From contig NZ_JACXSS010000001.1 in NCBI RefSeq assembly GCF_014850955.1, forward strand, positions 3,782,001-3,846,000: DNA of 64,000 nt. Direction: 5' to 3'. Under the pieces are notes generated by a model. That model saw only the letters and a list, made by a program, of their open reading frames with translations. It was not told where the DNA came from and made no database searches. Position numbers and translations under genes: made by a program. Shown piece after piece: positions 52,718 through 59,698 of the stretch (within the stretch, counting starts at the first letter, position 1; the number at the start of each line of letters is the position of its first letter). This DNA is from Methylomonas albis. GTDB taxonomy: Bacteria; Pseudomonadota; Gammaproteobacteria; Methylococcales; Methylomonadaceae.

Positions 52718-54640
52718 TTAGAAGCTATAAGACACTTCCCCATATACAGTTCGGCCGGCTTGTTGGTAAAACACTGACGCTGAAAATCTTGGAAACGGAG
52801 CGATAGCGAAGTGACGATTTTTAGTCCCCGATAGCCGTAGCGCCAGGCGGGTTTTCGCAGCGAAGCGGAGAAAACCTGCAAGGCATCGCGACACGGCGTC
52901 AAGTCATGCGAGAGCCGATGTTTCGACCCCCTGTTGGGTCGAAACGAGGTGACGCGGACGAATCGGGGCCGCCGAAGGCATAAACTGCCAGCAAATTTTT
53001 CGCGCTGAAATCGGATGGGACCCATTTCAGCTTTACCGAAAAATGCTGGCGCTCTTGATACTCTCGATCCAGGAGGTTGTTCACTGAAAACGACAGATCG
53101 ATATTTTTCGTCGCTTGGTAGGCAATGCGGGTATCAAGCAGAAAATAAGGGTCGTAACTGCCTGCTCGACCTGTAAATGAGTCGGAGTTTAAGTCATTAA
53201 ACGATGGCTGACTGACATAGCGACCAATGATGCCGCCGGCCCATTTATCGTATTTAACATCCAGACCGCCGCTAAACATGGTCTGTGGCAGCTGTTGCAT
53301 TTGCTTGCCAACAATCGCCGCATTCGCCGAATTTTTGGTAATGATCGAGTCGTTAAGCGTATACGTGCCGTTAAAGTGCAACCAATCCCAATACAACTGC
53401 TGCCTGACTTTGACTTCTACACCTTCAACTTCGGCCTCTCCGGCATTTTGTTTTTCCGACAAGGTCTGGTTGTTTGCATTGGTGCCGATGGTTTTGTTGT
53501 AGATCAAGTCAGAGATGTAATGATGGAAGTAGCTGGCAGCAATCGTGGTGCCCTTAACCGGATTGGCCTCGCCACCGACTTCCCAGGAATACATTGTTTC
53601 GGGGTTTAAATTCGCATTGGGTTCGGTAAGCGTCGACGATGTGATGCTGCTGCCATAAAGTTCAAAATTTGTAGGCGGACGGAATGCCCAACCCGTTGAC
53701 GCAAACAATTTGTAACCATCAACCGGCAACCAGGTCAAACTGAATTTCGGATTGAATTGATTCACCGAATGCTCGGTATAAGTTTTGTTGAACGCAGGCG
53801 ACACGTTTAGATTGGAACCGGAAGTAGTCCAGTCGTCGTAGCGCACGCCCAAATGAGCAATCAAATTTTTCATTATCCACAGCTCGTCTTGGATATACGC
53901 CGAGTAAATACTTGACTCACCTTTACTGAGTGCGGCCAGCGAGCTGGTCGAATCGGAATTTCGCCAGTAACCCAGATTGTAACGCGACTGGCCTTCAAGC
54001 GTGGTTTGACTGGAGCCAAAGCCCACGGTCACAAAGTTTCGTTCATCCCACAAGAAAGGAAATCGCAACGAGACATTGCCGTCTATTCGGTTGCTGGGCG
54101 TCTGCGTCAGCGTACCGGTACCGCCATTTAGTGTTGCCGTGGCGCCAGGACTGGTCGAGGATGTTTCGGTTTGCATATATTGAAAATCGACGTTGAGTTT
54201 TATATCACCGCCAAAGTCGTGTTTCATATGGGCAAAATAACGCCGCGTATCTTCGATAGCCGGAAGAAAGTGCATAAAGGCGTTTTCGGATACCGAGTAT
54301 CTTCTGCCATCGATATTGAGATTACTGCTGCCACTGCCAATAGCAACGGGCGTACCATCAAGCCGGGTTAAATAGCTGTTATATGCACCGTTATCATTGG
54401 TTTCGCCTCGACTCCACCCCATGCCGCCGTCAATTTGAGTGTTCGGACTCAAATCGTAGTAAAGGTGTAATGAAGCATTGTTTTGCTCCCAAGGCCGCCG
54501 GCCTTTGTCACCGATAATATATTGCTGGGTTTGGCCGGTATTGTTGGTAGTCGGAATGGCACGCCGCACGGGAATCGAACTACCGTTGATCGCAGCGTTA
54601 CCCCTGTTGATCGTTACATAAAAGGCGGGGGGACTTCTGA
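52718..54640 (-). pseudogene. TonB-dependent receptor, 5'-truncated and interrupted
   Basis: A siderophore- or vitamin-type outer-membrane receptor barrel. In frame from about 54640, INRGNAAINGSSIPVRRAIP leads to barrel strands, with LGVRYDDW, ASTGWAFRPPTNFELYGSS, ANLNPETMYSWEVGGE and SFSVNNLLDREYQERQ. The plug and TonB box are absent. After DREYQERQ the frame leaves the family text and ends at 52899, but about 270 nt further on the expected C-terminus FYQQAGRTVYGEVSYSF plus stop (52718) is found in another frame. The intervening ~260 bp is a separate element. Hence a dead gene missing both its start and its frame. Confidence 0.85.
52782..53044. repeat. Structured ~260-bp element inserted in the TonB receptor
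   Basis: Between the two halves of the receptor's final strands lies DNA that reads differently. It holds a perfect 10-bp hairpin GTTTCGACCC / GGGTCGAAAC with a 6-nt loop (52920-52945). A second stem, GGTTTTC / GAGAAAACC, is near 52850-52880, and phrases such as GCGATAGCGAAGTGACG resemble dispersed proteobacterial repeats. The flanks share an imperfect 12-bp direct repeat, CGTCAGTGTTTT and CGCCAGCATTTT in the minus reading. No transposase is encoded. It is probably a non-autonomous repeat or MITE-like unit; boundaries are approximate (a few bases either way). Confidence 0.55.
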
Positions 54641-54976
54641 TAACGGCTAGCAGCGGACTGCTGCGTTTCGACCATCAGTGCGGAAATTGGATGGTTTGCT
54701 GTCTGAGAGTTTAGCTATATATGCTTGATCGTAAGACCTGACCCAGACTTCCGCCGATTTCCGAATCGTGGCTTCACGGCAACCCTCAAAACCGGACGGA
54801 GAGTTTTCCTCGAGTGAAATGTTTGGGAGTGCTTTAATTGAAGCGAATCATTTGATTCAGGGGGCAAAGTAGCGGCGAGACACTTTGAAACGTTTGGTAT
54901 GTGGTTGCAAACCCCGTCCCGCTGGGGAAGTCTAGCGTTGTATACTAGCCAGACTAAGGACTGTCACGAAAACACA
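54641..54976. other. Intergenic region before the GT-STAND-TPR gene
   Basis: No gene supported. Near its right end TATACT at 54941-54946 could be a -10 for the large gene; a matching -35 is not obvious. A TAAGGA at 54954 is 18 nt before the chosen ATG, rather far for an RBS. The left part contains the broken 5' junction of the receptor pseudogene. Confidence 0.35.
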
Positions 54977-57900
54977 ATGCACTCACTAATTGCTTTTGCC
55001 ACTCAATGGGGCAGTAAATTCGGTGGAATCAACGCCTTTAACACCGACTTTCTAAGTCACTTCGGCGTCGCCTATCCCACACAGCTTCAGGTCATTTGCA
55101 TTGTTTCCAGTGCCACAGAGACAGAAATTGCCGATGCCAAAAATGACAATGTCACCCTGGTAACGCTTCCTTACCCTCCGAGTGACAAGCTATTCACAGT
55201 GCAGCAAGCCAACGCCGCCATCGACGAACTCGCCAAACAAGGCATCCCGCTAACCCCAGAATTTACCATCTGGCTCGGTCATGACCGAATCAGTGGCCGT
55301 GCAGCACTCCAAGCCGCTAAGCAATTCGGCGGTCGCTCTGCGCTGATTCACCACATGAGCTATGCAGCCTACGAAGCGTACGCCGAAGACTCACACTCAG
55401 CGCACAGTAAAAAAACTGACCAAGAAGAATTATTTAAGCAAGCCGACCTGCGTTTAGCGGTTGGCCCAGGCTTACACGAGGCGCTTTGCGACTTGATTGA
55501 TGTCAAGTCCGAACAAATACATCTAATCATTCCTGGCTTAGCCAATATTGACCCGCGTAATAACACCCCACAAAAATTCAGCGCCTTTATCAGTGGCCGT
55601 TTGAGTGACGATGCTGCCCGCATTAAACAAGCGCAACTCGGAATTGCCGCATTTGCTAACGCCATAAAACAAGCGCAAAACAACCAAGCTCCAGAAAAAC
55701 TGATTAATCAGCCAAAACTGACTTTACGCGGCGTCGATTTTGAATCACGCCTTGATTACAACCAAAGCCAATCCACCAACCCTGAACAAGAGTTACTGCA
55801 ATTTGCTGAAAGCTACGCTGATCAAGTCATCACCTTACACGCACTACCGTATACCCAAGATCGAACGGAGCTATACAACGACTTAAAGTCTGCCAGCGCG
55901 GCTATGATGCCTTCCTGGCACGAAGGTTTTGGTTTGGTGGCCTGGGAAGCGATTGCCGCCTGTGTACCGTTAATTGTCAGTATGCAAAGCGGTGTCTACC
56001 AACTGCTTAAACAGCAAGGGCTTGAAGGATTTGTTTATCCCATACAGGTTCGTGGCAAAACCGAAAGCCCCTTTTTCCACGATGACGACCTTGCCAAAGT
56101 TGCAAAAGCGCTAATCCATATTGCAACCAACGTTGACGCCGCCAAGCAAAAAGCCCACAAGCTGAAAACCGATTTAGCAGCCCACACCTGGTCGGCCTGT
56201 GTGGAAGAAGTTGCAAAAGAATGTTTTAAGTGGCACATCGAAAAAGGCAGCCCCAAGCTAGAGACAGCGACTGCGCAACTACCACAACTCACTAACCCAC
56301 AACAACCACTCGACGATTCGCCACTGACACTGCCCGTCAAACAATGGCGCGCCGATTTAGGCTATGCCGAAAGCCAGATGCTCCGCGCCGATTTTGCTTT
56401 GGTTCCGTTTGATCCAGGCCGCCAAACCGAGTTGAATACGCTCAACGCATGGCTGGATAACCAAGACGGCAACGATTATCTCATCAAAACTCGCTTGCTG
56501 ACGGGCGCCGGCGGCTTGGGCAAAACCCGCTTGGCGATTGAATTGTGCCAACAACGCATGAACAGCGGCTGGCATTGCGGCTTTCTCAATCGCGAAGATT
56601 CGGCACAAAGCTGGGCCAAGTTGCAAACCGCACAAAAACCGCTGCTTATCGTGATCGATTACGCGGAAACCCGTCAGGAAACCTTATTAAACCTGCTCAA
56701 AGCCCGGCTCAAAGCGGACTACCCACATCCGGTTCGCTTGTTATTACTGGCGCGTGGCGGCGGCGAGTGGTGGGATCAGCTGCCCGGCAAAGACGCCGAA
56801 TGCGAAGCACTATTAAACGGTTATGCCACCTCCGGGCCATACGTGTTGCCAGAGCTCTATCTGGATCAAAACAGCCGCCAACAAGCCTATCAAAACGCGC
56901 TAGCAGCTTACGCAACAGCCACCGATCGGCAAATCCCGGCGGGCATCCCTGATCTCGGCGGCGAACATTTTGCTAAGCCGCTGTATCTACAAATGGCGGC
57001 GCTGTTGGCGCTGTACGGTGAACGCCCCACCACCGCAATCGGCTTAACCCAATCGCTGCTGAATCACGAACGGCGTTATTGGCTGGAAACGCTCAAGGCG
57101 TTGGACTTAGTCAATCCACAACAACACGCCCAGGACTTGCTGGCGCTAACCACATTAAGCAACGGCTTCAAAACCCCGAAACAGGCTTACGAGTATTACG
57201 CCAAAGCCAAACCGGGCTTGATTACCCAGTCCGTTTTTAGCCCGCTATTCAAGCAACTAGAGCCACTGTATCCCGGTACGCAAGGCTTACAAGGCATCCA
57301 GCCCGACATATTCGGCGAAGCGCTGGTTGCGCAAAGCCTGCAACCAACAACCGGCCTGGATTTGCTGGACGTGATTTTGAGTAGCTCCGCCGATAAAGCC
57401 GTTCAACATCATGCGTTGACAGTTTTGGCGCGATTGAGTCTGCATGCACCGGAATTGGATAGCGTGTTAATCAAAGCCATACAAAACAACTTCGTCGCCT
57501 GCTGTTTGGAACTCGTGGATGTGGCCGTGCAAACGCAAAGTCGTTTGCCTAATTTGGCACAGCAAGCTTTCCAACAATTAACGCCACAACAAAAAAGCCA
57601 AACGGCGGGGTTATTGGAAAACCGTTTCGAGTACGAATCAATTTGTTTAGCTGAATTGGCGTATGAGGTGACATTTTTTAAAACAAAAAAATCGGCTCAA
57701 AAACTTAAAAAAAACCGAAGAGACATTCAGCTATTGTCGAAGCATGCTACTGATTTACTTAATCTAACGGTAGATGCCCTTCGGTTAGGTAAAGACGATG
57801 AGGCAGTTAATTTTGCTCAACAAGCCTTACAAATTTTCAAACAACTTTGTCATCAGCACCGAGTCCAATTTGAGCCAGATTACGCGTGGTCTCTCGACAC

Positions 57901-59134
57901 TTATGCGCTTCCCCTAAGTAATTTAGGGCGTAACGACGAGGCAGCAGACTATACCAAACTGGCGCTAGAAATATACGAGCGCTTAGCGCAGCAAAAACCG
58001 GATCAGTTTGAGCCAGATTACGCCAAGTCTCTCCACAACTATGCACACCATCTTGGTAAGTTAGGCCGCAACGAGGAGGCCGCAGATTATACTCAGCGGG
58101 CTCTGGCGATCCGTGAACGATTGGCGCAACAAAGACCGGATCGATTTGAGCCGGATTACGCCATGTCGCTCAGCAACTATGCGAGTCATCTGATTAATTT
58201 AGGCCGTGACGATGAGGCGACAAACTATCCCCAGCAGGCGCTGGCAATCTATGAACGCTTGGCGCAACAAAGACCGGATCGATTTGAGCCGGATTATGCT
58301 GTGTCGCTGAACAACTATGCGAGTCACCTGAGTTATTTAGGCCGGAACAATGAGGCGGCAGACTATGCCCAGCAGGCGCTGGCAATCCGCGAACGCTTGG
58401 CGCAACAAAGACCGGATCGATTTGAGCCGGATTACGCCACTTCTCTGAGCAACTATGCGAGTCACCTGAGTGATTTAGGCCGGAACGATGAGGCGGCAGG
58501 ACATGCCCAGCAGGCGCTGGCAATCCGCGAACGCTGGGCGCAACAAAGACCGGATCGATTTGAGCCGGATTACGCTCTGTCGCTGAACATTTATGCGAAT
58601 CGCCTAAGTGATTTAGGCCGGAACGATGAGGCGGCAGACTATGCCCAGCAGGCGCTGGCAATATACGAACGCTTGGCACTGAAAACTCCGCAACGATTTA
58701 ACAACAACCACTTTACTGTTCAATGTTATTGGCTATTTGCTGAATGGCTGAGCTTATCGCCTGCTTCGGTGAGCTTAGAATTTGGGCATATTGCTGAATT
58801 GCCGGATTTTATTGCCACACACAAACAACCCGCCTGTCTGTTTTATGCGCGTTTTGTGCAAGGCTGTTTAAGCCAAAATGCCGCTCAGCAGTTTCAGCAA
58901 GCCATCGCCCTCTGGTCGCAACTGACCAAGACAGATCAGCAAAATAATCGCGCCGAGTTTTTATGTGTTTGTGCTTGGTTAGCTCAATACGACGCCGATG
59001 CACTGCCTGAGCAAAACTGGCTGGATGTCTGGCAACAGTTTACCCGGCAACGCCAAGGTCGCTTACCGAAATGGCTGGAAACCGTGGCGGCGCGATTGGA
59101 CTTTTCATGGCCCCAGTCAACCAGTTTGGACTAA
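54977..59134 (+). CDS. Glycosyltransferase-like / STAND NTPase / TPR protein
   Basis: 1385 aa, three parts. (1) Residues ~1-430: GT-B-like domain (MHSLIAFATQWGSKFGGINA) with the GT4-type sugar-nucleotide motif MPSWHEGFGLVAWEAIA (Glu316). (2) ~450-900: P-loop STAND NTPase, with a preamble FDPGRQTELNTLNAWL, Walker A GAGGLGKT at 510-517, Walker B LLIVIDYAE (Asp561), then LLLLARGGGEWW like the sensor arginine. (3) ~935-1235: TPR array of 46-residue units, then ~150 residues of helix. This is the architecture of NLR-like sensors: variable repeat sensor, NTPase switch, N-terminal effector. Start ATG 54977 chosen; the frame is open from 54899 but only the shorter start begins like a GT domain. No signal peptide. 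Antiviral defence is inferred, and I know of no characterised member with this effector. Confidence 0.88.
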   Translation: MHSLIAFATQWGSKFGGINAFNTDFLSHFGVAYPTQLQVICIVSSATETEIADAKNDNVTLVTLPYPPSDKLFTVQQANAAIDELAKQGIPLTPEFTIWLGHDRISGRAALQAAKQFGGRSALIHHMSYAAYEAYAEDSHSAHSKKTDQEELFKQADLRLAVGPGLHEALCDLIDVKSEQIHLIIPGLANIDPRNNTPQKFSAFISGRLSDDAARIKQAQLGIAAFANAIKQAQNNQAPEKLINQPKLTLRGVDFESRLDYNQSQSTNPEQELLQFAESYADQVITLHALPYTQDRTELYNDLKSASAAMMPSWHEGFGLVAWEAIAACVPLIVSMQSGVYQLLKQQGLEGFVYPIQVRGKTESPFFHDDDLAKVAKALIHIATNVDAAKQKAHKLKTDLAAHTWSACVEEVAKECFKWHIEKGSPKLETATAQLPQLTNPQQPLDDSPLTLPVKQWRADLGYAESQMLRADFALVPFDPGRQTELNTLNAWLDNQDGNDYLIKTRLLTGAGGLGKTRLAIELCQQRMNSGWHCGFLNREDSAQSWAKLQTAQKPLLIVIDYAETRQETLLNLLKARLKADYPHPVRLLLLARGGGEWWDQLPGKDAECEALLNGYATSGPYVLPELYLDQNSRQQAYQNALAAYATATDRQIPAGIPDLGGEHFAKPLYLQMAALLALYGERPTTAIGLTQSLLNHERRYWLETLKALDLVNPQQHAQDLLALTTLSNGFKTPKQAYEYYAKAKPGLITQSVFSPLFKQLEPLYPGTQGLQGIQPDIFGEALVAQSLQPTTGLDLLDVILSSSADKAVQHHALTVLARLSLHAPELDSVLIKAIQNNFVACCLELVDVAVQTQSRLPNLAQQAFQQLTPQQKSQTAGLLENRFEYESICLAELAYEVTFFKTKKSAQKLKKNRRDIQLLSKHATDLLNLTVDALRLGKDDEAVNFAQQALQIFKQLCHQHRVQFEPDYAWSLDTYALPLSNLGRNDEAADYTKLALEIYERLAQQKPDQFEPDYAKSLHNYAHHLGKLGRNEEAADYTQRALAIRERLAQQRPDRFEPDYAMSLSNYASHLINLGRDDEATNYPQQALAIYERLAQQRPDRFEPDYAVSLNNYASHLSYLGRNNEAADYAQQALAIRERLAQQRPDRFEPDYATSLSNYASHLSDLGRNDEAAGHAQQALAIRERWAQQRPDRFEPDYALSLNIYANRLSDLGRNDEAADYAQQALAIYERLALKTPQRFNNNHFTVQCYWLFAEWLSLSPASVSLEFGHIAELPDFIATHKQPACLFYARFVQGCLSQNAAQQFQQAIALWSQLTKTDQQNNRAEFLCVCAWLAQYDADALPEQNWLDVWQQFTRQRQGRLPKWLETVAARLDFSWPQSTSLD
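57840..58690 (+). repeat. Six tandem 138-bp units encoding TPRs
   Basis: The mark TTTGAGCC(A/G)GATTA recurs at exact 138-nt steps (57869, 58007, then 58145, 58283, 58421, 58559), giving 46-residue units. The last four units share long exact stretches, for example CAACAAAGACCGGATCGATT, while the first two are diverged. Such near-identity between in-frame repeats suggests recent duplication or gene conversion. Confidence 0.9.
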
Positions 59135-59698
59135 CTTACCGCCCTGAGCGAGACGGTTTTTGTAGATCCATCCTCAACGTTTTAAGTTGGCAATCCAAGT
59201 GAATAACCCGTTACGAACGGGATAAATATCCAGTCCGGCAAGGGCAATGCCGTTAAGTTAAGATGATGATCGGCACGGGATGACGGGCATTACGCCCGTC
59301 ACCTCTACCACACCACCGGACTTGAGGTTTTCCGAACTGTCGGGTAAACCCAATTAGTGATGTTGTCACACAGTTTGACGGCACCCATAAACCCCATCCT
59401 TTCACTCTTGCATTGTTGAGTACCGCGTCAGCATTGGGCTTCTTGCTATCCGCCAGGCGCCGACCGATGCGCTGGTTTGGGAGGAAACGATCCTTGCGAT
59501 CTATCCCCGTAAGACATTTCTAGCAAACCTACCCTCTCAAGTAGCGCAGTTGACTTTTGATACTCGTGCAGTCGTCTTCAGACATTGACAGCAATAACTG
59601 GCCTCGACTCGAAAAACTATTTTTTGGCTTGGAATTGCAACCGGTGGGATTTAGCCGGAGTGTCGAGGCCGGTCCGTAAATCCGCCGTTCGGTTATAT
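59135..59698. other. Intergenic region with hairpins, 564 bp
   Basis: Two perfect inverted repeats: CCCGTT-ACG-AACGGG at 59207-59221 and TGACGGGC-ATTAC-GCCCGTCA at 59281-59301, neither with a T-run; they could close the preceding transcript. A frame reading RVSIGLLAIRQAPTDALVW then ETILAIYPRKTFLA is open from about 59390 to 59584 on the plus strand, without start or RBS; it may be a gene remnant. Minus-strand frames near 59529-59975 are shadows of the next gene. Confidence 0.4.

Follow-up and report, generated by a model that had tools for sequence, protein, structure and literature searches.

Among bacterial NLR-like proteins, the characterised effectors are nucleases, NADases, proteases and membrane-active domains. 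The consulted parts of Kaur et al. (2021, eLife 10:e70394, PMC8195603) present family 4 glycosyltransferase (GT4) domains fused to STAND modules of the AP-ATPase, NACHT and SWACOS types as predicted counter-invader effectors, and those of Kaur et al. (2020, PMC7159879) count at least three glycosyltransferase families among the effectors of related systems. The present analysis concerns a protein of this kind encoded at positions 54977-59134, on the forward strand, of a 64,000-nucleotide stretch of the Methylomonas albis genome (NCBI RefSeq assembly GCF_014850955.1, contig NZ_JACXSS010000001.1, positions 3,782,001 to 3,846,000), referred to as the window. We lean towards reading its gene as a single-gene, horizontally transferred, NLR-like conflict protein, probably directed against phages, on the basis of the domain layout, the predicted GT-B and NLR-like folds and catalytic-type residues that do not vary, the gene being rare, mobile and under purifying selection. 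A preliminary description had been made from the letters alone; its account of the layout, of the GT-B/GT4 fold and of a plastic insertion site has held, and its view that the effector type was undescribed is not supported, since GT4-STAND fusions are already predicted in the consulted text of PMC8195603 and the Pfam family concerned, PF20706, is named 'Family 4 Glycosyltransferase in conflict systems'.

Domain layout and conserved motifs

The reading frame is open throughout, from 54977 to 59134, and counts 1385 codons. The start codon is either the ATG at 54977, which yields the 1385-residue form of database entry P0001, or an in-frame ATG at 54899, which yields 1411 residues; the 26-codon upstream extension is likewise open in the Methylomonas methanica homologue (L021, 1115 codons up to the contig end). 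The single chain joins an N-terminal GT4 domain, a STAND NTPase and a TPR array, as first described, with its motifs in place and its domains matched far above chance (Pfam: PF20706 at E 2.1e-79, TPR_12 at 7e-22, TPR_10 at 5e-21). Together with the predicted folds, these domains support the NLR-like organisation in three parts that had been claimed for it. The features of the chain, all on the + strand, are the following:

54977..56236, +, GT-B (GT4-conflict, PF20706) domain, residues 1-420
55022..55027, +, G16-G17 loop in the N-terminal Rossmann half, in 54 of 54 rows of alignment A1 and in 64 of 64 GT domains (a set partly selected on this motif)
55922..55948, +, E316-x7-E324 motif (HEGFGLVAWE), both glutamates invariant in 54 of 54 rows of alignment A1; among 64 GT domains, all have E316 and 62 have E324, the other two having Asp
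56237..56416, +, linker, residues 421-480, of low model confidence in its first part (pLDDT below 50 over most of 425-460 in one model and over 431-445 in another)
56417..57346, +, STAND NTPase core with helical and winged-helix part, residues 481-790
56504..56527, +, Walker A GAGGLGKT, residues 510-517
56657..56659, +, Walker B Asp561 (LLIVIDYAE); in alignment A2 (53 rows) the D, Y and E of DYAE never vary and its A is kept in at least 90%
57347..57736, +, helical arm joining the NTPase to the TPRs, residues 791-920, helices in the predicted model
57737..58726, +, TPR array, residues 921-1250, presumed sensor, with TPR_12 and TPR_10 matches and tandem 138-bp units
58727..59131, +, C-terminal tail, residues 1251-1385, without Pfam match

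PF20706 covers residues 6-411 (profile positions 2-384 of 385) with 267.8 bits against a cut-off of 26. Since ordinary GT4 enzymes also exceed this cut-off, with 14 of 14 control genomes matching at the default limit, what matters for the assignment is the gap between the window gene (271.5 bits) and the next best score in the same genome (38.9); at E 1e-40, none of the 14 control genomes matched. Structure prediction and a fold search supported the proposed GT-B fold of the N-terminal region, the solved structures listed as matches being GT-B retaining glycosyltransferases with GT4 enzymes in the lead. The domain thus combines a full-length profile match above cut-off, a GT-B fold (in the predicted structure) with E-x7-E, and fusion to an NTPase module, as members of the GT4-conflict family do. 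The segment MPSWHEGFGL singled out in the preliminary description lies at residues 311-320 and overlaps the E-x7-E motif, which we take to be the donor-binding and catalytic signature of GT4 enzymes. Twelve residues (G16, G17, H102, D103, H125, H126, R208, K217, R251, H315, E316 and E324) are each identical in all 54 rows of alignment A1. Across 64 GT domains (63 loci and the window, two of 66 proteins being too short), ten of the 11 positions checked are invariant, E324 being replaced by Asp in two; the loci were found through search peptides around G16 (G16-N19) or E316 (W314-E316), which biases conservation at those positions only. On these alignments, the simplest reading would be that of an enzyme under selection.

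The Walker A motif and Asp561 of the STAND module were found where they had been placed and are conserved in alignment A2. Over the 34 proteins with the window's type of STAND module, a script recovered the Walker A pattern in 32 and DYA[ED] in 18, so that this wording of Walker B is not universal in the wider set. Pfam matches the module weakly (nSTAND3 at residues 507-561, E 0.0045, below cut-off), and the matches of two relatives (L025, L057) to nSTAND_NTPase5 are weak as well. EfAvs5 was the best Foldseek match of the predicted structure, and NLRC4, EfAvs5, NLRP3 and NRC1 were the top matches in VIA-align. Walker A and B motifs, a nucleotide-binding domain followed by helical and winged-helix domains, and superstructure-forming repeats at the C-terminus are all present, as in STAND/NLR-like proteins.

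The repeat array, in which TRF counts 5.9 copies of a 138-bp unit at 57868-58677, varies among close relatives. Between the window protein and its four nearest tested homologues (P0002, P0003, P0005 and P0006), identity reaches 82-90% in the GT domain, 89-94% in the STAND module and 73-78% in the TPRs, which are the least conserved of six segments in these four pairs; the five proteins range from 1293 to 1431 amino acids, with three to five matched repeat motifs. Such a changing array fits a sensor, although slippage makes repeat arrays drift as well. A minus-strand open reading frame of 161 codons (58194-58679) inside the TPR repeats looks like a shadow of the repeats and not like a gene.

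Spread of the gene and partners of the GT4 domain

The gene is rare and mobile. With the window's own genome included in each count, its GT part is present at E 1e-40 in 2 of the 37 genomes searched for the genus, in 7 of 311 for the order and in 1 of 398 sampled from the phylum; the STAND part, at E 1e-20, occurs in 4 of 311 genomes of the order. A protein search returned 426 relatives among 7995 candidates scored; scanning named genomes yielded 66 loci, distributed over Pseudomonadota, Nitrospirota, Acidobacteriota, Thermodesulfobacteriota, Myxococcota, Planctomycetota, Cyanobacteriota, Bacteroidota and Bacillota. The GT tree places the window beside other methanotroph copies and mixes phyla, the 32-row set around the window also containing Nitrospirota, Acidobacteriota and Thermodesulfobacteriota, which indicates horizontal spread. 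Three distant relatives on plasmids (30-36% identical) have integrases, IS3 transposases or type VI secretion system genes nearby.

Script sorting of 66 proteins (65 loci and the window, a further locus, L086, being dropped for a match of 51 residues only) according to what accompanies the GT4 domain gave 34 with the window's STAND type (own profile, E <1e-20), five with another P-loop motif, 11 with B12-binding and radical-SAM domains and 16 with none. This last class is rough: contig ends truncate L024 and L036, the reading frames of L032 and L060 cover part of the match and L059 has a weak AAA_16/NACHT match. Sixteen of the sorted proteins were checked with Pfam, as was P0030, a protein of 918 amino acids whose GT4 domain (55% identical to that of the window) is followed by a TIR domain at 464-572, Pfam finding no STAND module in it. 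The B12-binding and radical-SAM chains (1280-1446 amino acids: L072:9848-14188, L082:9995-14140, L073-L078, L081, L084 and L085) were called by Pfam for L072 and L082 and by similarity to L082 for the other nine; together with two shorter chains, they make up a separate side of the GT tree. None of the terms radical SAM, B12 and cobalamin is used in the main text of PMC8195603 as consulted. One plasmid relative, whose annotation is cobalamin-dependent protein, sits among integrases. Another NLR-like build is found in a Myxococcales protein of 1958 amino acids (L056:624-6500), in which GT4 is joined to NACHT and a long HEAT/Arm repeat array. In a planctomycetotal protein of 1536 amino acids (L059:6240-10850), the weak AAA_16/NACHT match comes first and GT4 lies C-terminally, at 983-1373. 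The GT4 domain thus occurs in NACHT-HEAT, TIR and B12-radical-SAM chains, much as a portable functional module would.

Effector swapping on the window's STAND type was considered and rejected. Seven of the 120 proteins listed, out of 512 matches to residues 470-900, are free of PF20706 and seem N-terminally short, none being a clear case of a swapped effector: in each of the seven the alignment begins only at query residue 375-475. Five of the proteins themselves start within two residues of that point, ahead of which P0124 and P0125 have unaligned stretches of 15 and 42 residues. P0125 lies on a 4.9-Mb contig, so that contig ends do not explain every such case.

These other builds bear on the main rival explanation, in which the GT-B domain would serve to sense or bind a nucleotide diphosphate (NDP) sugar, a glycan or glycosylated phage DNA, the effector residing elsewhere in the chain or in a partner protein. 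In its favour, P0030 couples GT4 to TIR, itself a common effector, L059 carries its GT4 last, and the consulted text of PMC8195603 also reports GT4-STAND proteins with TIR or caspase effectors and GT4 often at the C-terminus. The invariance of the catalytic-type residues in 54 of 54 rows, nearly complete in the 64 GT domains, exceeds what sugar binding needs, and it disfavours the non-enzymatic binding domain that the preliminary description had offered as its alternative. Moreover, GT4 is N-terminal in the window protein, the usual position of an effector. Pfam and PADLOC profile scans found no second effector domain in the chain, nor was any CARD, PYD, CC or TIR found there. We therefore regard a purely sensory GT-B domain as unlikely, while keeping it as the leading alternative.

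Insertion site, selection and neighbourhood

The stretches beside hrcA in nine relatives were compared with the window. In six of them (L087-L092) the DNA matches up to 54521-54578 and again from position 59587 or 59682, the interval being taken up by about 6 kb of other DNA; where reading frames were examined (L087, L088, L091), this DNA holds a full TonB receptor gene (784-830 amino acids) and frames of 1317-1321 and 202 amino acids. Of the others, L094 ends at a contig end, L093 is without the segment and L095 is arranged differently. The window gene therefore sits in the place of other DNA, and the local receptor gene has lost its start, in agreement with the plastic region beside a decayed receptor noted in the preliminary description. 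Two flanking features are relevant:

53059..54578, -, truncated TonB-dependent receptor gene (Pfam PF00593 at E 1.4e-48 on the remaining barrel), its 5' side lost where the GT4-STAND unit begins
54641..54976, +, upstream region moving with the gene, 85% identical to DNA upstream of the M. methanica homologue at a different locus

In M. methanica R-45363 this site is without the gene (L088), and the strain's own copy lies on another contig; similarity between the two copies begins at 54641, and the upstream region was thus transferred along with the gene. No convincing repeats were found at the insertion junctions (best match E 1.4, chance level).

Near the 3' end of the TonB relic lies a 282-bp dispersed repeat (52777-53058) that none of the compared relatives has at this place. 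Counting this copy, it has 26 matches in the genome, of which 18 show 97-100% identity over nearly the full length; it looks like a recently mobile short element.

A replacement site beside a broken gene, near a dispersed repeat of 280 bp, could be that of a selfish or degenerate accessory gene, currently functionless. The 1385-codon frame is nevertheless intact and its motifs are kept, and the gene is under purifying selection: the NG86 ratio of nonsynonymous to synonymous substitution rates (dN/dS) against the M. methanica homologue is 0.26 for GT, 0.15 for STAND and 0.30 for the TPRs, this last value covering 195 codons in a repeat array that the contig end interrupts and whose alignment may be wrong. 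Absence of function is, in our judgement, very improbable.

The neighbourhoods of homologues were sampled at 20 loci, with flanks of at most 6 kb (some one-sided at contig ends); reading frames above 1600 or below 120 amino acids were excluded, and 124 of 168 remained after a random drop. A polysaccharide cluster as the usual setting was rejected: at E 1e-8, no Pfam glycosyltransferase family occurred in two or more of the 124 neighbours, with 25 of the 160 families listed, so that single glycosyltransferase neighbours may be hidden, and with no control set. One GDP-mannose dehydratase was present. The Pfam scan therefore does not show homologues always accompanied by polysaccharide genes, the pattern that would have spoken against the preliminary description. 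This result bears on a further explanation, in which the protein is a STAND signal protein serving cellular physiology, in the manner of MalT or AfsR: a glycosyltransferase gated by a ligand, which would glycosylate the envelope or metabolites and have no part in immunity. The lack of a recurrent glycosyltransferase family among the neighbours, the patchiness of the gene even within the genus (2 of 37), its horizontal spread across phyla and the failure of Pfam to find a DNA-binding domain in the chain make such a role rather improbable. Overall, the context speaks for mobility and against a polysaccharide cluster, and is weakly suggestive of defence.

Proposed function and kinship with described systems

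If the gene is a conflict gene, the TPR array and C-terminal tail could bind an invader-derived or infection-altered ligand, upon which the STAND NTPase would exchange nucleotide and oligomerise. The oligomer would cluster and activate the N-terminal GT4 domains, and these might transfer sugar from an NDP-sugar to a macromolecule or metabolite of host or invader, so that the infection or the cell is stopped. A bacterial NLR with an inducible glycosyltransferase effector, whose target might be a factor essential to the host, a component of the invader or a nucleotide-sugar pool, is put forward tentatively, as a possibility.

Several observations weigh against a conflict role. The neighbours of the window copy appear to include hrcA, grpE, dnaK, dnaJ and dapB (identified by eye from translations) and, by Pfam, HupE/UreJ and TonB receptors; no defence gene or operon is recognisable around it, and the PADLOC matches listed for the window (25 of 39 matched families) are mainly helicase-type profiles, in keeping with the RapA and DEAD-box helicase genes there. 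PADLOC has no model for the window protein beyond a generic TPR: up to E 1 it returned TPR (E 4e-5) and PDC-M16B (E 0.52) only. Near homologues, PADLOC matched 68 families in the 124 neighbour proteins versus 29 in 135 control proteins (of 182 reading frames under the same length limits, from 12-kb stretches on the same 20 contigs), a rough comparison that gives no clean enrichment figure, since counts are per family and one gene can match many, most families being matched by a single gene. Among the first 25 families listed for each set, plausible neighbour matches are type III and IIG restriction enzymes, the SIR2/pAgo type and PD-T4-6; mad3, mad8, RtcR and MzaA match in the control too, which also matches defence-named profiles (AriA, PDC-M16A, PDC-S68, AbiLi). 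A search of 50,697 phage records at E 1e-10 gave no match. In two more distant pairs (P0007, P0008) the TPRs do not rank last in conservation, and ordinary AAA+ ATPases score close after the NLRs in the structure-match lists. Finally, the union of GT4 with a B12-radical-SAM module, without STAND, in 11 of 66 relatives means that the presence of GT4 does not in itself diagnose STAND-based immunity.

The window gene is another case of the predicted GT4-STAND kind. No experimental test of that prediction, including phage protection, was found among the listed titles and abstract starts of the open-licence PubMed Central (PMC) literature. If the proposed function is true, glycosylation would be an added chemistry for NLR immunity, and this mechanism would be one for which that literature yielded no experimental example. 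Methylomonas is a culturable genus, and with intact catalytic-type residues, a complete frame and close homologues the prediction is testable with the window copy.

As in the GT4-STAND fusions of PMC8195603, a domain of the same GT4 family and a STAND NTPase share one chain in the window protein; the consulted text stresses AP-ATPase, NACHT and SWACOS modules with an often C-terminal GT4, whereas here GT4 is N-terminal, the STAND module matches Pfam weakly and TPRs follow. The same text reports related GT4 domains in marine invertebrate TRADD-N proteins. The metabolic GT4 enzymes MshA, BshA and GlgM have the whole GT-B fold and E-x7-E in common with the window domain, but they are free-standing and about 15% identical to it, and their substrates cannot be carried over. 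The animal and plant NLRs NLRC4, NLRP3 and NRC1 bear leucine-rich repeats where the window protein bears TPRs, and the N-terminus of the latter is an enzyme fold. Avs5 (AVAST type 5, SIR2-STAND; 9jap, 9nc9), which Foldseek matched to the STAND model at E 1e-6, likewise consists of an N-terminal enzymatic domain, a STAND NTPase and a long C-terminal part; it differs in its effector, SIR2 instead of GT4. No Avs profile is among the matches of the window protein in PADLOC, which includes AVAST models, and the two proteins are about 12% identical and align loosely (VIA root-mean-square deviation 19.6).

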